Assembly (NCBI GenBank): GCA_022446795.1
Contig: JAKVBX010000002.1
Location: forward strand, 117,513-181,512
Direction: 5' to 3'
Source of the DNA: Phycisphaerales bacterium
GTDB lineage: Bacteria > Planctomycetota > Phycisphaerae > Phycisphaerales > SM1A02
Length of the DNA stretch: 64,000 nucleotides
The notes below the pieces were generated by a model that had not been told where the DNA came from, did no database searches, and worked only from the letters and a program-made list of their open reading frames with translations. This document shows, in pieces, positions 46,291 through 56,212 of this stretch (its first letter is position 1; each line of letters opens with the position of its first letter). The translations under genes were made by a program, and so were the position numbers.

Positions 46291-47001
46291 TCAACCCGCC
46301 GCAGCGGCGTCCGCCAGGACGGTGGCGTGGCTCGGCGCGACTCGACCACCGGGAATCGACGTATCTCCCGCCATCATCTTCTTCAGGGCCTCGGCCTTGC
46401 CCGCGCCCACGACCTGCCACATGATCCGGTGAGCGCGATCGATGAGCGGATAGGTGAGCGTCATCCGACGCCGACCCTGGTAGGTCCCAGCCGTCAGCGC
46501 CACGTCCCGATCCGTCACGTCGAGGACGGCGTCTCCGGGGACCAGCGACGCGGTATGACCATCGGGTCCCAGTCCCAGGTGAATGATGTCGAGCCGAGCA
46601 GGCGTGCCACAGACCTCAACCAGAAGTTCGGCATAGCGGGCAGCAGCCGCCTCCAGGTCCGGATCATTGACCGGCATCGGATGCGTCCGACTGGCCAACT
46701 CCGGGCGAACGGCCAGGACATGCTCGCGAAGGTGCGTGAGGTTGCGATCATCATCGCCCTCCGGCGCGATCCGCTCATCCACCTGGAACAACCAGACGGA
46801 TTCCCACGGGAGATCATCACGCCGCGCCAGCGACTCCAGCATGGGCCACGGCGAATGACCACCGGACACCGCCATGGCACAACGGCCGCGAGCGTCAACC
46901 GATGCCCGGATGGCATCCGCCAACCACTCTTCACCGTGGGTGGCCACTGCTTCAGATGTCGGGAAGACCTCGATCTCCGGCCCCTGGCGCCCGTCGCTCA
47001 T
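46291..47001 (-). CDS. pgl: 6-phosphogluconolactonase
   Basis: 236 residues. Hydrolyses 6-phosphogluconolactone, second step of the oxidative pentose phosphate pathway. NagB-like fold with AVSGGHSPWPMLESLA, VWLFQVDERIAPEGDDDRN, and DIIHLGLGPDGHTASLVPG carrying the phosphate and catalytic residues. It is the last gene of the pentose phosphate operon and overlaps the histidine phosphatase stop by ATGA. That context makes pgl far more likely than a glucosamine-phosphate deaminase. Confidence 0.95.
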   Translation of the reverse strand: MSDGRQGPEIEVFPTSEAVATHGEEWLADAIRASVDARGRCAMAVSGGHSPWPMLESLARRDDLPWESVWLFQVDERIAPEGDDDRNLTHLREHVLAVRPELASRTHPMPVNDPDLEAAAARYAELLVEVCGTPARLDIIHLGLGPDGHTASLVPGDAVLDVTDRDVALTAGTYQGRRRMTLTYPLIDRAHRIMWQVVGAGKAEALKKMMAGDTSIPGGRVAPSHATVLADAAAAG

Positions 47002-47597
47002 TCGATCGCCTCCACGACGGCCTGCACGCTCTGGTTCCAGACGAGAGTCGTCGTGTACTCGTGCTCATAGCCCAGGACGCAGTACGTCCCCGTACCCAGG
47101 GTGAAGCAACGCCCCTCGGTCGGCTGGAGTCCCAGCCAGGTGGCCGCCATGACCCGCAGCACGTGGCCATGGGCGAAGAGCGCCACGTCGCCGCCGGCCT
47201 CCTTGGCTCGCTCGATGACACGCTGGCACCGGTTGCCGACCTCTGCCGCTGCTTCCCCCCCGGGCGTCTGTCCATTCCAGATGGTCCAGCCCGGTTGCTC
47301 CTTGCGGATATCCGGTGTCGTCCGTCCCTCGTAGCTGCCGTAGTTCCACTCGGACAGGTCCTCGCACGTCTCGGCCTGGGACTTGAAACCCGCCAGTTCG
47401 CAGGTCCGCTGGGCCCGCTGGCGTGGACTGACCAGCACCAGCGAGAAGCTCTTGCCAGCAAGCGATCGACCCAGCAACCGCGCCATGTCCTCACCACGCG
47501 GGGTCAACGGGATGTCCGTGAAACTGGTGTGCTGCCCCGAAAGACTCCACTCGGTCTCGGCATGTCGCAGCAGCCACAGCCTGGTTCCACCAATCAT
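46998..47597 (-). CDS. Histidine phosphatase resembling yeast Shb17 sedoheptulose-1,7-bisphosphatase
   Basis: 199 residues. The catalytic histidine is H12 in LLRHAETEW and the second is H143 in LFAHGHVLR, with R11 and R61 as phosphate binders. SGQHTSFTDIPLTPRGE (residues 20-36), LSEWNYGSYEGRTT, WTIWNGQTPGGE and the AHGHVLR...WLGL run match the features I know of the Shb17 branch, not of cofactor-dependent phosphoglycerate mutases. The gene is overlapped by four bases with zwf upstream (ATGA) and with pgl downstream (ATGA), between two pentose phosphate enzymes. I chose ATG 47597, because the longer frame to 47687 lies inside zwf. Confidence 0.82.
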   Translation of the reverse strand: MIGGTRLWLLRHAETEWSLSGQHTSFTDIPLTPRGEDMARLLGRSLAGKSFSLVLVSPRQRAQRTCELAGFKSQAETCEDLSEWNYGSYEGRTTPDIRKEQPGWTIWNGQTPGGEAAAEVGNRCQRVIERAKEAGGDVALFAHGHVLRVMAATWLGLQPTEGRCFTLGTGTYCVLGYEHEYTTTLVWNQSVQAVVEAIE

Positions 47598-49000
47598 GCG
47601 TTCACCAGTTCCTCTACGGGCTTCAGCACGGGAGCGTGCCAACCATACTTGTGATGCAGCAGGGCATCGGCTTCCGTCGGTCCCCACGTGCCCGGTTCAT
47701 AGTCGATCACCGGGGTCACGTCGCCCAGGATCGGATCGACCACCTTCCAGGCGGTCTCGACCTCGTCCACGCGTGCAAACAGCGTGGACTCCCCGGCGAT
47801 CGCGTCACCGATCAGGCGCTCATAGGCGCTCATCTCATCGGGCTGCTCATGCTGGGCGATCAGTTCCAGGGGTTGGCCGACCATCTCCTCGCCGATCTTC
47901 TTCGCGCGAACACCGATGGCGACCACGGTATTGGGCTTGAACTGGAATCGGAAGTAATTGCGGTTCGACTCATGACAGTCCCGGAACAACTTCTGGGGTG
48001 GCTGCTTCATCTCCACGACCACCTCGGTCGCCGTTACCGGCATGTTCTTGCCAGCGCGGATGTAGAACGGGACATCGGCCCATCGCCAGGAGTCGATCTT
48101 GAGGCGAACCGCGGCATAGGTCTCGGTCGTCGAATCCGGCTTGACACCGGGTTCGTCCAGGAAACCCTTGAAGCGACCTCGCACGACATCCTTGGGCGTC
48201 AACGGCTTGATCGACTGGAACAAGCGAACCTTGGCATCACGCAACGACTCTTCATTCGACGCTGCCGGGGGATCCATCGTCAGGATGGCCAGCACCTGCA
48301 TCATGTGATTCTGGATGACATCGCGAATGGTGCCCGCCTCGTCGTAGAACGCCCCGCGGCCTTCCACACCGAAGTCCTCGGCCATGGTGATCTGCACCGA
48401 CTTCACGTAGTTGCGGTTCCACACCGGCTCCATGAAGGTGTTGCCGAATCGGAAGTACCCGAGGTTCAGCAACGGCTCCTTGCCCAGGTAATGATCGATC
48501 CGGAAGATGCCCTCTTCCGGGAAGACCTCGTAGAGGACCCGGTTCAGTTCCTGGGCGGTTTCCAGGTTTCGACCGAAGGGCTTCTCCACGACCACGCCGG
48601 CATTCTCGGCGCACCCGGAGGCCTTGAGGGCCTGGGTCACCATCTCGAAGATACTCGGTGGAATCGCCAGGTAGTGCAGCGGCCGCTTGGCCTTGCCCAG
48701 GGCCGAATGCAGTTTCTGGAACGTCTCCGGATCGGAGTAGTCACCGCTGACATATCCCATGCGATCGGCCAGCCGCTTGAAGACGGCGTCGTCAATGGGG
48801 ACTTCACCGTACTTCTCGATCCCGTCGCGGGCTCGTTCCACCAGCGCCGACACATCAATGTCGTCCCGGGCGATCCCGATGACAGGCACCTTGAGGTGGC
48901 CGCGGCTTTCCATCATGTACAACGATGGGAAGAGCTTCTTGTGAGCCAGGTCGCCCGTGGCGCCGAACAGGATGAAGATGTCGCAGGCCGGCCGACTCAC
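47594..49000 (-). CDS. zwf: Glucose-6-phosphate 1-dehydrogenase
   Basis: 468 residues, a little shorter than the 480-500 usual. Oxidises glucose-6-phosphate to the lactone with NADP. Nucleotide motif FGATGDLAHKKLFPSLY, the active-site RIDHYLGKEPLLNL with the catalytic histidine and lysine, and the conserved NRNYVKSVQITMAEDFGVEGRG. The C-terminal half has the substrate strands VPFYIRAGKNMPV and PVIDYEPGTWGP. It overlaps gnd by ATGA (48997-49000) and the histidine phosphatase by ATGA, so it is in the middle of the operon. Confidence 0.96.
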   Translation of the reverse strand: MSRPACDIFILFGATGDLAHKKLFPSLYMMESRGHLKVPVIGIARDDIDVSALVERARDGIEKYGEVPIDDAVFKRLADRMGYVSGDYSDPETFQKLHSALGKAKRPLHYLAIPPSIFEMVTQALKASGCAENAGVVVEKPFGRNLETAQELNRVLYEVFPEEGIFRIDHYLGKEPLLNLGYFRFGNTFMEPVWNRNYVKSVQITMAEDFGVEGRGAFYDEAGTIRDVIQNHMMQVLAILTMDPPAASNEESLRDAKVRLFQSIKPLTPKDVVRGRFKGFLDEPGVKPDSTTETYAAVRLKIDSWRWADVPFYIRAGKNMPVTATEVVVEMKQPPQKLFRDCHESNRNYFRFQFKPNTVVAIGVRAKKIGEEMVGQPLELIAQHEQPDEMSAYERLIGDAIAGESTLFARVDEVETAWKVVDPILGDVTPVIDYEPGTWGPTEADALLHHKYGWHAPVLKPVEELVNA

Positions 49001-50022
49001 TTGGCTGCCGCCTTCTCGTGATGGCCACCGAACTGGAATCGCATCGCGGACAGCAGCTTGTCACCAAAGTCCGACTCCCCACGCGAGGTGAATCGCTCGA
49101 AGAGTGCCGTGGCGAGAACCGGGGCGGGGCTTCCTGAATCGATCGCCGCCTGCAGGGTCCAGCGACCTTCACCCGAGTCGGAGACGCGACCCGCGAACTC
49201 GTGCAGGTCCGGACTGTCCAACAGGGCCTTGGCGGTCAGGTCGAGCAACCAGGACGCGATGACGCTTCCGCGTCGCCAGACTTCCGCGATATCCGCGAGG
49301 TTCAGTTCGAACTGGTAGTACTTGGGATCACGAAGCGGCGTGGTCTCGGCATCATCGGTCTGTTGCTTCAGCCCGACGTTCCCATGCTTCAGGATGTTCA
49401 GGCCCTCCGCATAGGCCGCCATGATGCCGTACTCGATGCCGTTGTGAACCATCTTGACGAAGTGACCGGCCCCGGTCGGACCACAGTGCAGGTACCCATG
49501 CTCTGCCGTTCCACCGTGGCCCTCACGCCCGGGTGTGCGCTCGGCCTCGTCGATGGACGGGGCCAGCGTGGACAGGATCGAATCGATGTGCTCCACCGCC
49601 TCGGTATGACCGCCGATCATCATGCAGTACCCGCGATCGAGACCCCAGACGCCGCCACTCACTCCGACATCGACATAGTGAATGCCCTTGTCCGTGAGGT
49701 GCTCCGCCCGGTCGATGTCATCGCGATAGTAGGAGTTGCCGCCGTCGATCAGGATGTCACCCTTCGACAGGAGCGCCGCCACCTTGTGGACCGTGTCATC
49801 GACGAAGGCCGCGGGGATCATCATCCAGACGACCCGGGGACCATCGAGGGCCGCCACGAAGTCCTCCAGGGTCTTGGTTCCCGTCGCGCCCTCGCCAGCC
49901 AGTTCATCCACGGCGTCCGAATGCACGTCGTAGACCACGCACTGATGGCCATCCTTCATGAGCCGACGAACCATGTTCGCACCCATGCGTCCCAGGCCGA
50001 TCATTCCCATCTGCATCTTCAC
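48997..50022 (-). CDS. gnd: 6-phosphogluconate dehydrogenase, short (GndA/YqeC) type
   Basis: 341 residues. Oxidatively decarboxylates 6-phosphogluconate to ribulose-5-phosphate. The Rossmann motif GLGRMGANMVRRLM opens the protein, then DVGVSGGVWGLDRGYCMMIGG with the substrate-binding loop and GHFVKMVHNGIEYG. Length and motif fit the shorter YqeC/GndA branch (about 300-340 residues, often NAD-linked), not the 470-residue E. coli type. It lies 36 bp after the rpiB-tal fusion and overlaps zwf by four bases. Confidence 0.94.
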   Translation of the reverse strand: MKMQMGMIGLGRMGANMVRRLMKDGHQCVVYDVHSDAVDELAGEGATGTKTLEDFVAALDGPRVVWMMIPAAFVDDTVHKVAALLSKGDILIDGGNSYYRDDIDRAEHLTDKGIHYVDVGVSGGVWGLDRGYCMMIGGHTEAVEHIDSILSTLAPSIDEAERTPGREGHGGTAEHGYLHCGPTGAGHFVKMVHNGIEYGIMAAYAEGLNILKHGNVGLKQQTDDAETTPLRDPKYYQFELNLADIAEVWRRGSVIASWLLDLTAKALLDSPDLHEFAGRVSDSGEGRWTLQAAIDSGSPAPVLATALFERFTSRGESDFGDKLLSAMRFQFGGHHEKAAAK

Positions 50023-50058: not shown

Positions 50059-51594
50059 TCAGGCCGTCTGGAGGTTCTTGCTCTTCTCATCAATTGCCGC
50101 CATCAGATCGTGCCACGACTGGTTGAAGGAGTCACGGCCCTCGATCTGAAGTCGCTCGCCCAATGCCGCCACGTCGACGCCCGCGGCATTGCAGCGGGCA
50201 ATGATGTCATCCGCCTCGGCGATGGATGACTCTTCGAGCTTCCCGGTCACCTCGCCATGATCCGCAAAGGCCAGCAGGGTCTTCTCGGGAATCGTGTTGA
50301 CCGTTCCATCGGCCGCGAGCGCGGAGACGTAGTACGTGTCCGGCAGCGCCGGGTCCTTGGTGCTCGTGCTCGCGAAGAGCAGCTTCTGCGGGGTAGCGCC
50401 CTTGGCTGCCAATGCCTCCCAGCGGGGGCCGGAGAAGATCTCGAGCGAAGCCCGCCAGCACTGGACCGACGCGGCAACACCAAGACGATCCTTCAGATCA
50501 TCAGGCAGGTCGTTCATGGCCGCCTTGTCCCACCGGGAGACGAAGACGGATGCGACCGAGAACACCTTGAGGCTCTCGCCCGCCTCGGCACGACGCTCCA
50601 GGCCCTTGATGTAGGCCTCGGCCGCTCGCCGATACTGGGACTCCGAGAACAGCAGCGTGACGTTGATGTTGATGCCTCGCGAGATCAGTTCCTCGATCGC
50701 CGGCGCGCCCTCGGGCGTGCCCGGCACCTTGATCATGAGGTTGGGCGTAGCAGCCCGCGCGAAGAGCGAAGCACCCTGTTCGATCGTCGAATTGGTGTCA
50801 TTGGCCAGGAGCGGGGAGACCTCGAGTGAGCAGCACCCATCGGTCGCACCAGAAACATCCCAGGTCGTCCGGAACAGGCCCGCGGCCCGCTGGAGATCCT
50901 GGATGGCGAGCGTGAAGAAGATCTCCTCACGATCGGTCGTGCCACCAGCTCGCAGCGACTTGATCTCCTCGTCGTAGAGTTCGGTATCGGCGATGGCCTT
51001 GTCGAAGATCGATGGATTCGACGTCAATCCCGTCACCGAGAGTTCGTTGATGTACCTCGCCAACGTTCCGTTATCGAGAATGTCGCGGCGAATGTAGTCC
51101 AGCCAGATGCGCTGGCCCGTTTCGTGCAAGTCGTACATCGGATTCATGAATTGCTCCCTCGCCATTTGGATAACTTCGCCGAGTCGACGGCGATGGCGTT
51201 CCTCTCCCGTGAATTCAGCCTTGAGAAAAGCGGTCACGATCTCCTTGGCCGGTTCCACTCCCATGGTCCGGGCGCCAAGCGTGATGACATTGACCGCATC
51301 ATGTTCAACCATCTGGTGCGCGGTGTAGATATTCTCCGTCGACGACGCCCGAATCAGCGGCATCTTGTTCGCCGCCACGGTGACACCGGCGCCACTGCCG
51401 CACAGCAGGATGCCCCGGTCCGCTCGGCCCGCGCCGATTTCCTCGCACAGCGCCTTGGCGGCAATGGGGTAGTCCACCGAGTCGCCCGTCTGCGGACCGG
51501 CGAAGATGACCTCATGCCCCAGGTCGCGGGCGACCTCGGCCAGGGGGTCTCGCAATGGTCGCCCCGCGTGATCGCTGGCCATCACGATCCGCAT
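50059..51594 (-). CDS. RpiB-transaldolase fusion protein
   Basis: 511 residues in one frame. Residues 1-145 are a complete ribose-5-phosphate isomerase B: MRIVMASDHAGRPLRDPL, the catalytic C65 in GILLCGSGAGVTVAANK, and H98 in VEHDAVNVITLGAR. Residues about 150-511 are a full transaldolase of the actinobacterial type: NELSVTGLTSNPSIFDKA, the Schiff-base lysine K289 in NLMIKVPGTPEGAPAI, INVTLLFSESQYRRAA and VASVFVSRWD. The two catalytic sets are intact, so one chain should make ribose-5-phosphate and shuffle C3 units. It starts one base after the tkt stop (TGATG). Transaldolase fused to Pgi is known in actinobacteria; this partner is different. Confidence 0.93.
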   Translation of the reverse strand: MRIVMASDHAGRPLRDPLAEVARDLGHEVIFAGPQTGDSVDYPIAAKALCEEIGAGRADRGILLCGSGAGVTVAANKMPLIRASSTENIYTAHQMVEHDAVNVITLGARTMGVEPAKEIVTAFLKAEFTGEERHRRRLGEVIQMAREQFMNPMYDLHETGQRIWLDYIRRDILDNGTLARYINELSVTGLTSNPSIFDKAIADTELYDEEIKSLRAGGTTDREEIFFTLAIQDLQRAAGLFRTTWDVSGATDGCCSLEVSPLLANDTNSTIEQGASLFARAATPNLMIKVPGTPEGAPAIEELISRGININVTLLFSESQYRRAAEAYIKGLERRAEAGESLKVFSVASVFVSRWDKAAMNDLPDDLKDRLGVAASVQCWRASLEIFSGPRWEALAAKGATPQKLLFASTSTKDPALPDTYYVSALAADGTVNTIPEKTLLAFADHGEVTGKLEESSIAEADDIIARCNAAGVDVAALGERLQIEGRDSFNQSWHDLMAAIDEKSKNLQTA

Positions 51595-53645
51595 CAGTTC
51601 GCCCCTTCCATGATGCCCACGAGATCACGAACGCGATCGGCAACATGCTCCGGCGTGAATCCCAGTTCGGCATAGACCTTGGGGCCGGGCGCCGAGGCAC
51701 CAAAGCGTGACAGACCAATGACATCATCGGCCCACTCGTACCAGGGTTCCGGTGACGCCGCTTCAACAGCGACGATGGGTCGATCGCTGGGAACGATCTC
51801 CTCTCGATCCTCCAGGGGCAGGAAGCGGAACAGTTCGACGCAGGGCATCGACACGACGCGGACCTCGACACCCTCGCCGGCGAGCCGTTCGCGAGCCGCC
51901 ATGGCCAGGCCGACCTCGGAGCCGGTCGCGATGATCGTGGCACGATCACCATCCGCCACGACCGAGGCGCCACGGGACACGTCCGCCATTGCCGGGTCCT
52001 GGACAGGAAGTCCCTGCCGGGTCAGGACAATGCAACTGGGGCCGTGATGGCCAATGGCCTCGCGCCAGGCACCGATGCACTCCTGCGCATCGCCCGGTCG
52101 GAACGTGCGGAGGTTGGGCATCGTGCGAAGGCCGGCGAGATGTTCCACCGGCTGATGGGTCGGGCCGTCCTCGCCCAGAGCGATCGAATCATGCGTGAAG
52201 ATGAAGACCACCGGCAGGTGCATCAGCGCCGCCAGTCGTACGGGTTCACGCATGTAGTCCAGGAAGGAGAAGAACGTCGCGCAGTACGGTCGCAGTCCGC
52301 CATGCGCCGCCATGCCATTACAGATGGCGCCCATGGCATGCTCTCGCACGCCGAAGTGGATGTTTCGCCCCGTCCAGTCGCCGCTGTTGATATCACCGCT
52401 GCCATCGATGTTCGTATGCGTGGAGGGGGCCACGTCCGCGGAGCCGCCAACCAGTTCGGGCACCATTGCGGCAAGGGCATTGAGTACCTGTCCGCCGGAC
52501 TTGCGAGTGGCGACCGACTCCCCGGGCGTGAACTCGGGCATCGTGGCACCATCCCAACCGGCTGGCAGCCCTCCCTTCATGCACCGCTCCAGGTCGCGAG
52601 CCAGGTCGCCGTGGGCGGACTGGTACGACGCCCAGTCCGACTTCCACTGCTCATGTGCACTGGCCCGCTCGGCGACGGCCGCTCGCCAGTGATCAAGCAC
52701 CGGCCCGGGAACCTCGAAGGGTGGTGAACTCCAGCCAAGCGCCTTGCGGGTGGCCTCGATGTTGTCCTCGCCCAAGGGAGACCCATGAGCATGGAAGCTG
52801 TCCTGGACCGGGGAGCCATATCCGATGTGACTGCTGACGATCACCAGGCTCGGTCGATCGGTATCGGCCTTGGCCTGGTCGATGGCCGCGTTGAGCGCGT
52901 CGAGGTCATTGACATCATCGACGGTGATCACCTGCCACCGGCAGGCTTCGAACACGCCCTTGATGTCGGTATTGAGCTCCACCGGGGCCGGACCTTCCAG
53001 CGTGACCTCGTTGTCGTCATAGAAGACGATGAGCTTGCCGAGACCCAGTCGACCGGCGATGGAGGCCGCCTCGTACGAGATGCCTTCCATCAGGTCGCCT
53101 TCACCCGCCGTCACGTAGATGTGGTGATCGATGACCGTGTGGCCGTCGCGATTGAATCGCGCCGCCAGCATCCGCTCCGCCATCGCCATCCCGACACCGT
53201 TGGCCACACCCTGGCCCAGGGGGCCGGTGTTGATCTCGATCCCGGGGGTCATGTCCATCTCGGGATGGCCCGGCGTCTTGCTCTCCCATTGTCGGAACTG
53301 CTTCAGGTCCTCGATCGACAGGTCATACCCCGCCAGGTGCAGCGAGGCGTACTGGAGCATGCATGCATGCCCACCGGACATGATGAATCGATCACGATCC
53401 ATCCAACCCGGTGACCGGGGGTCGTATTTCATCTGGCGGGACCACAGCGTCCAGGCCAGTGGTGCGAGACCCATCGGCGTTCCGGGATGACCGGAGTTGG
53501 CCTTCTGGATCGAGTCGATCGCCAGGAACCGGATGGCATTGATGCAGTCCGCATCCATGCCGCTCGGCTCCGAGCCACCACTGGTCCTGCTCCGGATACC
53601 GACGTCCGGACGGACATCACCATCGTGGGAAACGGTCGATGACAT
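51594..53645 (-). CDS. tkt: Transketolase
   Basis: 683 residues, full length. Thiamine-diphosphate enzyme of the non-oxidative pentose phosphate pathway. FLAIDSIQKANSGHPGTPMG, GQGVANGVGMAMAERML with the GxGD-type cofactor segment (TAGEGDLMEGISYEAAS), and FTHDSIALGEDGPTHQPVEHL are the family hallmarks, with the catalytic glutamate in FGVREHAMGA. ATG 53645 follows AGGAGGGAA; a GTG at 53651 is possible. First gene of the minus-strand operon, with TAGGAT (53681-53686, minus) as a likely -10. Confidence 0.97.
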   Translation of the reverse strand: MSSTVSHDGDVRPDVGIRSRTSGGSEPSGMDADCINAIRFLAIDSIQKANSGHPGTPMGLAPLAWTLWSRQMKYDPRSPGWMDRDRFIMSGGHACMLQYASLHLAGYDLSIEDLKQFRQWESKTPGHPEMDMTPGIEINTGPLGQGVANGVGMAMAERMLAARFNRDGHTVIDHHIYVTAGEGDLMEGISYEAASIAGRLGLGKLIVFYDDNEVTLEGPAPVELNTDIKGVFEACRWQVITVDDVNDLDALNAAIDQAKADTDRPSLVIVSSHIGYGSPVQDSFHAHGSPLGEDNIEATRKALGWSSPPFEVPGPVLDHWRAAVAERASAHEQWKSDWASYQSAHGDLARDLERCMKGGLPAGWDGATMPEFTPGESVATRKSGGQVLNALAAMVPELVGGSADVAPSTHTNIDGSGDINSGDWTGRNIHFGVREHAMGAICNGMAAHGGLRPYCATFFSFLDYMREPVRLAALMHLPVVFIFTHDSIALGEDGPTHQPVEHLAGLRTMPNLRTFRPGDAQECIGAWREAIGHHGPSCIVLTRQGLPVQDPAMADVSRGASVVADGDRATIIATGSEVGLAMAARERLAGEGVEVRVVSMPCVELFRFLPLEDREEIVPSDRPIVAVEAASPEPWYEWADDVIGLSRFGASAPGPKVYAELGFTPEHVADRVRDLVGIMEGAN

Positions 53646-53680
53646 GGACACTTCCCTCCTCTTCTCACCGGCGAGGAGCC

Positions 53681-53800: not shown

Positions 53801-54505
53801 ATGAATATCCTGGTCTGTGACGTGGGCGGAACGAGCGTCAAGATCCTGCTCACCGGTGAAACCCAGCGACGAAAGGCCCCTTCCGGCCCGGAGATGAAGG
53901 CCGAGGACATGGTCGCAACGGTCAAGGAACTGGCCGAAGGCTGGACGTGGGATGCCGTCTCCATCGGGTTTCCCGGTCCGGTCATCCACGGCCGGATCAT
54001 GTCGGAACCCTCCAACCTGGGCAAGGGCTGGATCGCGTTCGACTTCGAGGAAGCCTTCGGCTGCCCCGTCCGGATCGTCAACGATGCGGCGATGCAGGCC
54101 CTCGGGAGCTACCACGGTGGCCGGATGCTCTTCATGGGACTCGGCACGGGACTGGGGACCGCCATGATCGTCGACGGCATCCTCCAGCCCATGGAAGCCG
54201 GTCACCTGCCCTATCGAGACGGCAAGACCTACGAGGACTTCGTCGGCAAACGGGGATACAAGGAACTCGGCAAGAAGAAGTGGCATTCGGCCGTCATCGA
54301 TGTCATCACCCAGTTCAAGCGGGCCCTGGAGCCGGACTACATCGTGGTCGGCGGGGGTAACGTGAAGAAGTTCGACGCCTCCGATCTACCGGAGTATTGC
54401 GAGATCGGGGCCAACGCCAATGCCTTCACCGGCGGGTTCCGCCTCTGGGAAGATCGGATGCCCCACGGGATCGCCGTCTCGGGCTCCACCTCCGAATCCA
54501 GTTGA
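53801..54505 (+). CDS. ROK family kinase, polyphosphate-glucokinase-like
   Basis: 234 residues. Phosphate-1 loop VCDVGGTSVKILLTG at the N-terminus, then FPGPVIHGRI, NDAAMQALGSYHGG and LGTGLGTAMIVDGILQPMEAGHLPYRDGKTYEDFVG, with YIVVGGGNVKKF near residue 185. The ROK-specific zinc cluster CxCGxxGCxE is absent and the size is small, as in polyphosphate/ATP glucokinases (PPGK). It makes glucose-6-phosphate for the pgi and zwf steps encoded next to it. GGAGAAGAG precedes the ATG. It is 155 bp from the divergent tkt operon. Confidence 0.85.
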   Translation: MNILVCDVGGTSVKILLTGETQRRKAPSGPEMKAEDMVATVKELAEGWTWDAVSIGFPGPVIHGRIMSEPSNLGKGWIAFDFEEAFGCPVRIVNDAAMQALGSYHGGRMLFMGLGTGLGTAMIVDGILQPMEAGHLPYRDGKTYEDFVGKRGYKELGKKKWHSAVIDVITQFKRALEPDYIVVGGGNVKKFDASDLPEYCEIGANANAFTGGFRLWEDRMPHGIAVSGSTSESS

Positions 54506-54550: not shown

Positions 54551-56212
54551 ATGAGCACGACGTTGCATACCGGCGATATCACGACGGCCCCGGCCTGGTC
54601 CGCCCTGCAGAAGCACTACGACGAAACCAAGTCCGTCCACATGCGAAGCCTGTTCGAATCCGACCCCGGTCGATTCGATCGATTCTCGATGACCTTCAAT
54701 GACATGCTGGTGGACTTCTCCAAGCACCGGATCACGGAAGACACGCTTGGCCTCCTTCGACAATTGGCCTCCGAGGCCGGCGTCGAAGCGCTCCGTGATG
54801 CGATGTTCAATGGAGAGAAGATCAACACGTCGGAGAAGCGTGCCGTGCTGCACGTGGCGCTTCGGAATCGAAGCAATCGCCCCATCATGGTGGATGGCCA
54901 GGACGTGATGCCCGAGGTCAACAGCGTGCTGGAACAGATGCGGTCCTTCTGTGATGCCGTTCGCGGAGGAACCTGGCGAGGGTTCTCCGGCAAGCAGATC
55001 ACCGACATCGTCAACATCGGCATCGGTGGCTCGGACCTGGGCCCCGTCATGGTCACGGAGTCACTGAAACCCTACGGCCGTGATGATCTCCAGCCGCACT
55101 TCGTCTCCAACGTGGACAGCACGCATATTGCCGAGACGCTCAAGCACCTCGATCCCGAGACGACGATGTTCCTGGTCGCCTCGAAGACGTTTACGACCCA
55201 GGAGACCCTGACCAATGCTCACGCGGCACGGGACTGGTTCCTGGCCGTGGCTGGCGATGACGCGCATGTCGCCAAGCACTTCGTGGCCCTGTCCACCAAC
55301 CAGGCGGAAGTCGAGAAGTTCGGTATCGACCCGGCCAACATGTTCCGCTTCTGGGACTGGGTCGGCGGCCGCTATTCGTTCTGGTCGGCCATCGGACTGT
55401 CCATCGCCCTGACCATCGGCTTCGATCGATTCGAGGAGCTCCTGCAGGGCGCCCATGAGATGGATGAGCACTTCCGGACGACACCGCTGGAAGACAACAT
55501 CCCGGCAACCATGGGGCTGATCGGCGTCTGGTACAACAACTTCTACGGCTGCCAGACCCAGGCCATCCTTCCCTACGACCAGTACATGCACCGCTTCCCG
55601 GCCTACTTCCAGCAGGGAGACATGGAGAGCAACGGCAAGCATGTCGACCGGCAGGGCCACCACGTTCATTGTTCGACCGGTCCCATCATCTGGGGCGAAC
55701 CCGGGACCAACGGCCAGCACGCCTTCTACCAGTTGATCCACCAGGGTACGAAGATCGTTCCCTGCGACTTCATCGCCCCCATTCACACGCACAACCCGAT
55801 CGGGGAGCAGCACCGCATCCTGCTGTCGAACTTCTTCGCCCAGCCCGAGGCCCTGATGCGGGGCAAGACCGCCAAGGAGATCGAGGCCGAGTTGACCGCC
55901 TCAGGCCTGTCCCCCGCCGATGCGAAGGCCCTGACTCCCTACAAGGTCATGGAAGGCAATCACCCCTCGACCAGCATCATGTTCCGGACGCTCGATCCCA
56001 GGACACTTGGATCGCTGACCGCCCTGTATGAACACAAGATCTTCACCATGGGCGCGATCTGGAACATCAACTCCTTTGACCAGTGGGGTGTCGAACTCGG
56101 CAAGAAGCTCGCCCGGGCCATTCTGCCGGAACTCGAGGGAACCGACCATGTCGCTACCCACGACAGTTCGACCAACGGCCTGATCAACCACTACAAGACC
56201 CACCAGTCCTGA
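54551..56212 (+). CDS. pgi: Glucose-6-phosphate isomerase
   Basis: 553 residues, full length. Interconverts glucose-6-phosphate and fructose-6-phosphate. Signature runs include [43 protein letters not shown], and the C-terminal [32 protein letters not shown] with the catalytic lysine. GAAGGGAATCAGC precedes the ATG. It lies 45 bp after the ROK kinase and 26 bp before the debranching enzyme on the same strand, forming a glucose/glycogen-to-hexose-phosphate operon. Confidence 0.97.

Follow-up and report, generated by a model that had tools for sequence, protein, structure and literature searches.

In a group of uncultured planctomycetes, two enzymes of the pentose-phosphate pathway, the isomerase RpiB and transaldolase (Tal), are made as one protein. 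The full-length fusion is present in 16 of 181 genomes of one planctomycete family, in four genera, and in none of them is it broken by an internal stop. The explanation that best fits all the evidence, and that we hold to be probable, is that loss of a stop codon created a bifunctional RpiB–Tal enzyme and that the same gene likely also gives free Tal from an internal start. We describe the gene in a 64,000-nucleotide stretch of DNA from a Phycisphaerales bacterium, here called the window, and compare it with its relatives across Planctomycetota.

As the initial annotation had reported, RpiB and transaldolase share a single 511-residue chain. The gene is read from the minus strand (51594→50059), which that annotation had left unstated; a plus-strand reading of the same interval was ruled out, as it contains stops and no recognisable protein. 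Models of both families match the chain. In Pfam these are LacAB_rpiB at residues 3-139 (137 bits, cut-off 24.7) and TAL_FSA at residues 163-501 (232 bits, cut-off 27). In NCBIfam they are RpiB PRK05571 (NF004051; 149 bits, cut-off 135), transaldolase PRK03343 (NF002881; 412 bits, cut-off 367) and the TIGR00876 transaldolase model (263 bits, cut-off 234). The cut-off of the rpiB equivalog TIGR01120 was not reached (109 of 139). AlphaFold predicted the whole chain as a monomer with a mean pLDDT of 95 and a pTM of 0.92, and Foldseek matched its parts to Neisseria transaldolase (TMt 0.97) and Clostridium thermocellum RpiB (TMt 0.94); none of the top 50 chains matched both domains. The gene is the second in a minus-strand pentose-phosphate operon in the order tkt, fusion, gnd, zwf, a histidine-phosphatase-family gene and pgl. 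The histidine-phosphatase-family gene thus sits between zwf and pgl, within the pathway genes.

Table 1 The fused gene, its parts and the genes around it, in positions of the window.
Feature	Position	Strand	Details
Transketolase, tkt	51594..53651	minus	TIGR00232, 810 bits; TGA overlaps the ATG of the fusion (TGATG)
Fused gene, rpiB~tal	50059..51594	minus	511 aa; ATG start; stop 50061-50059; no internal stop
RpiB domain, residues 1-147	51154..51594	minus	PF02502, 137 bits; PDB 3he8, 40% identical, TMt 0.94
Codons of Cys65 and His98	51402-51400; 51303-51301	minus	Within the RpiB domain
Internal Shine-Dalgarno-like GAGGGAG	51154..51160	minus	Contains the Arg146 AGG codon (51159-51157)
Internal ATG, Met150	51145..51147	minus	ATG/GTG in 14/16 homologues, ATT in the other two
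Transaldolase domain, residues 150-511	50062..51147	minus	PF00923, 232 bits; PDB 7bbw, 40% identical, TMt 0.97
Codon of Schiff-base Lys289	50730-50728	minus	Within the transaldolase domain
6-Phosphogluconate dehydrogenase, gnd	48997..50022	minus	Short NAD-type; NF007161/TIGR00872 above cut-off
Glucose-6-phosphate dehydrogenase, zwf	47594..49000	minus	TIGR00871, 483 bits
Histidine-phosphatase superfamily gene	46998..47687	minus	PF00300; true start probably downstream of 47687 (weak Shine-Dalgarno at the first start)
6-Phosphogluconolactonase, pgl	46291..47001	minus	TIGR01198, 151 bits
ROK-family, polyphosphate-glucokinase-like gene	53801..54505	plus	PF00480; best NCBIfam model NF045942 below cut-off; divergent from tkt
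Glucose-6-phosphate isomerase, pgi	54551..56212	plus	Separate gene; NF001211, 870 bits

The junction between the two domains holds what looks like a second translation start. Residue 150 is where a stand-alone Tal begins, and Met150 may most simply be read as the ancestral Tal start codon. Across the 16 fused genes this codon is ATG in 12, GTG in two and ATT in two (g301). In the window, the Shine-Dalgarno-like sequence ahead of it pairs with the anti-Shine-Dalgarno at −7.7 kcal/mol, the strongest value among the gene's 46 ATG/GTG codons and similar to those of the true starts of tkt, zwf and the fusion; the corresponding sites are weaker in the two g51 genes (−3.2) and mixed in g303 (−5.0 to −9.1). 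The Arg146 codon within this sequence is AGG in all 14 genes with an internal ATG or GTG, and CGC in the two g301 genes. Elsewhere in the fusion genes AGG is rare (about 20 of 450 other Arg codons). Among the 115 four- or sixfold degenerate positions at which the 14 genes conserve the amino acid, AGG146 is the sole invariant codon, in genes whose synonymous divergence is close to saturation (pS about 0.7). The RNA around Met150 is moderately open, with an unpaired value of 0.48 compared with 0.68 at the main start.

Both AGG146 and Met150 could be passive leftovers of the old tal gene, or requirements of the linker, in which case only the full-length protein would be made. The two g301 genomes, fused and without an internal start, fit such an account, as do the weak g51 sites and the modest openness of the RNA. 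It leaves unexplained, however, why AGG stayed unchanged in 14 genes at such synonymous divergence while the other 114 degenerate codons all vary, and why so seldom used a codon should be the one kept. Moreover, start and AGG were lost together in g301, and the changes from Met to Val preserved a usable GTG. We consider passive retention doubtful, if still a real possibility. Probably, to judge from the pattern of codon conservation, selection keeps Tal initiation, so that one gene would supply RpiB–Tal plus free Tal. On the whole, we lean towards a single cistron that would encode both the bifunctional protein and free Tal, the internal site setting their ratio, with selection acting at a synonymous site and the fusion serving as the cell's only Rpi.

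The second question is whether the RpiB domain of the fusion still works as a ribose-5-phosphate isomerase. The initial annotation had called both active sites intact. For the residues on which it based this, the statement stands: Cys65, His98 and Lys289 are invariant in the 16 fusions, and in the RpiB domain so are D8, H9, D41, R109, R133 and R137. Two other positions depart from it. Every fusion has Asp at the position of Asn99, and where Leishmania donovani RpiB has Glu149, the window's genus has Ala or Lys and the other three genera have Glu. The Asn that follows the catalytic His (Asn110' in C. immitis) has been called universally conserved (PMC3212906), and work on Leishmania RpiB, which describes the roles of the catalytic Cys and the ring-opening His, found that E149A inactivates the enzyme (PMC4783025). 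The Asp is also found in unfused relatives of the same subfamily, however, which makes it ancestral. The conserved Asn and Glu149 are features of the enzymes studied so far and no absolute criteria for the family. Further changes are Ser at the position of T67 in all fusions and, in one genus, H134 to Tyr together with Y42 to Phe, the latter also present in one of the two g51 genes.

These substitutions leave room for the view that the RpiB domain no longer isomerises ribose-5-phosphate and has become a structural or dimerising module, or has a different sugar phosphate as its substrate, such as erythrulose-4-phosphate, which it would convert to erythrose-4-phosphate. The latter would make the fused activities a truly consecutive pair, as erythrose-4-phosphate is a transaldolase substrate, and the D-erythrulose-4-phosphate isomerase model NF051858 does match the fusion at 97 bits. 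This score (96.6 bits) is nevertheless far below the cut-off of 240, and the RpiB positions named above (C65, H98, D8, H9, D41, R109, R133 and R137) are all invariant. The cell also needs a source of ribose-5-phosphate, and the fused genomes hold no other PF02502 protein and, where tested, no RpiA. Finally, dN/dS is about 0.02-0.11 across both domains (about 0.03-0.11 for RpiB and 0.02-0.11 for Tal). Both are under strong purifying selection, and a value for RpiB as low as that of Tal speaks against decay of the RpiB domain. We consider a changed role unlikely and retain the reading that the fusion would carry both activities.

That the fusion itself is an assembly or sequencing artefact, through a missed stop or a frameshift, can be set aside with near certainty, since the identical in-frame junction recurs in 16 assemblies from four genera whose other 15 fusions are 59–87% identical to the window protein. 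The initial annotation had named such an error near position 51150 as one finding that would refute its reading, and had suggested searching Planctomycetota for ORFs that pair RpiB with Tal; the search, run on samples, settles the first point through the 16 in-frame fusions that it returned. In the window's genus all six genomes carry the fusion, the five others at 79–87% identity to the window, and three further genera have it at 59–64%. The full-length fusion was not found in the remaining genomes of the 181-genome family sample. Trees of both domains place the fusions in a single clade, with support of 99/95 for RpiB and, for Tal, of 75 in one tree and 99 in another. The fusion is a clade trait and no one-off. 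Four genomes of the fusion genera (G456, G520, G523 and G525) had no match for RpiB or for transaldolase, from either operon loss or an assembly gap. Our searches covered samples of Planctomycetota and plasmids: a scan of genome contigs returned one close relative (Phycisphaerales bacterium UBA3158) and one unrelated Tal, and in the plasmid collection 731 records matched, none over 80% of the query, so that no fusion was found there.

Each of the 16 fused genomes has one PF02502 match and one PF00923 match, and both are the fusion. RpiA (PF06026) was not found in the seven fused genomes tested, and the same search was positive in eight control genomes. The fusion is the only Rpi and the only Tal detected in the fused genomes, with RpiA tested in seven of the 16. 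With both functions resting, as far as detected, on one gene, the clade allows a clean complementation test. Most of the unfused relatives that we examined have two RpiBs. One is about 50–56% identical to that of the fusion and in most cases lies directly behind tkt; the second is of the typical 'HNDANV' type. Their tal usually adjoins pgi, divergent from it. The presence of two RpiBs, one of them linked to tkt, suggests that the tkt-linked rpiB joined tal and that the spare RpiB then disappeared. Most likely, rpiB and tal stood side by side behind tkt in the ancestor shared by the four genera and became one gene there when the stop between them was lost; the separate rpiB and tal copies would have disappeared after the fusion.

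Against this route, adjacent unfused rpiB and tal were seen only in anammox genomes and on one contig of doubtful origin, and were not seen in the unfused genera of the fusion's own family. That contig (C294 of G461; L073/L093) reads tkt-rpiB-TGA-tal, with rpiB and tal in one frame and one stop apart, and is possibly foreign to its assembly. It looks like an unfused precursor, but we do not rely on it, because its tal is truncated close to the end of the contig and its rpiB clusters, though weakly, with the anammox sequences.

A second fusion of these enzymes came to light in another family. In a phylum-wide sample of 392 genomes, seven (L107-L113) encode RpiB, Tal and Pgi in one chain of ~1097 residues. 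Hydrazine synthase alpha was present in all five of these genomes that were tested, which identifies them as anammox bacteria. The triple fusion resembles the window's protein in that RpiB is N-terminal to Tal, with about 43% identity over the first 507 residues, and in that tkt lies just upstream where this could be seen. It differs in its third domain, Pgi, and in having no Met at the RpiB–Tal junction, and its genomes keep at least one other RpiB, unlike those of the window's clade. The Tal tree rejects a common origin of both fusion types (p-AU 5e-7); on the short RpiB tree by itself, the same one-clade test gave no rejection (p-AU 0.068). By the evidence of the Tal tree, the anammox triple fusion arose separately from RpiB–Tal. 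In one unfused anammox genome (G782; L121:1435-4790), a tal~pgi ORF directly follows rpiB, whose open frame slightly overlaps it, and this arrangement is a likely precursor route to the triple fusion. Apparent giant Tal ORFs of other families (L115, L116, L118 and L119) were rejected as RpiB fusions, since Pfam found in them only Tal or Tal plus Pgi.

Together, these observations suggest how the RpiB–Tal protein could work. Its N-terminal domain would interconvert ribulose-5-phosphate and ribose-5-phosphate, and its C-terminal domain, via Lys289, would exchange a dihydroxyacetone unit between sedoheptulose-7-phosphate/glyceraldehyde-3-phosphate and fructose-6-phosphate/erythrose-4-phosphate. 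Transketolase, encoded in the window's genus by the neighbouring gene that overlaps the fusion, condenses ribose-5-phosphate with xylulose-5-phosphate to give sedoheptulose-7-phosphate and glyceraldehyde-3-phosphate, which Tal consumes. It would thus join the two fused activities, using the product of RpiB and making the substrates of Tal, and the tkt - rpiB~tal - gnd - zwf - pgl operon would co-express the pathway. Since the fused activities flank this one step, direct channelling between them is not obvious, and would require transketolase to be close by. A tight three-enzyme complex seems dispensable, since tkt does not adjoin the fusion in the g303 and g51 loci that we read. Because RpiB works as a dimer, the fusion would be at least a homodimer carrying two Tal domains.

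In the window's genus and two others, the gene appears to have kept within its reading frame the ribosome-binding site and start codon of the former tal gene, and a shorter second product, free Tal of 362 residues, is probably also made. It is plausible, as the initial annotation proposed, that the fusion tunes flux or stoichiometry. A fixed 1:1 ratio is in doubt, however, as use of the retained internal start would add free Tal. The simplest account may be that the fusion was kept as harmless or as useful for co-assembly, and that the internal start preserves extra Tal. The retained start would illustrate, from comparative data, how one partner of a gene fusion can still be produced separately, and it cautions against assuming a 1:1 ratio for fused metabolic enzymes.

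Such gene-within-gene arrangements have precedents. Archaeal Cas11b (PMC11899642), two-polypeptide endolysins (PMC9430671) and the in-frame second protein of Rpn (PMC10327210) are all made by internal initiation, and in each, as we propose for the fusion, the internal start yields the C-terminal part separately. Those are defence or phage proteins characterised by experiment; the fusion is a metabolic protein known from sequence comparison.

Taken singly, the two domains of the window's protein resemble well-known enzymes. The RpiB domain is 40% and 36% identical to the stand-alone RpiBs of C. thermocellum (PDB 3he8) and T. cruzi (PDB 3k7o), with TMt values of 0.94 and 0.90 and the catalytic Cys and His conserved; it differs in being fused, in the replacements at N99 and T67 and, in the window's genus, in the loss of the Glu149 equivalent. 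The Tal domain belongs with the stand-alone Neisseria/Corynebacterium-type transaldolases (PDB 7bbw/3clm and 3r5e; NF002881), at 40% identity and a TMt of 0.97 and with the Schiff-base lysine aligned; it differs from the Neisseria enzyme in its fusion to RpiB and in having Thr188 in place of Cys. His157 and Thr188 of the fusion align with a Lys and a Cys of the Neisseria enzyme that we take to be its Lys-Cys (NOS) redox switch, and the switch appears to be absent from the fusion.

As a fusion, the closest known counterpart is the transaldolase/phosphoglucose isomerase (NF007080, PRK09533), which has a Tal of the same broad subfamily, likewise fused to a sugar-phosphate isomerase of central carbon metabolism. 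The window's protein is no variant of it, in agreement with the initial annotation: the partner here is an N-terminal RpiB, pgi is a separate gene on the opposite strand, the 511-residue protein has no PGI match, and it scores 377 bits where the NF007080 cut-off is 712. The annotation also knew of no well-described RpiB–transaldolase fusion. We likewise found no description of one in the open-access literature searched, nor of the anammox triple fusion in the literature searched, yet the annotation's picture was incomplete: RpiB–Tal is the trait of a clade, is the only Rpi and Tal detected there, keeps an internal Tal start codon in 14 of its 16 genes, and stands beside a separate triple fusion. 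Within Planctomycetota, RpiB and Tal would thus have been joined at least twice independently, once together with Pgi, and with the known Tal–Pgi this makes the joining of these enzymes a recurrent event.
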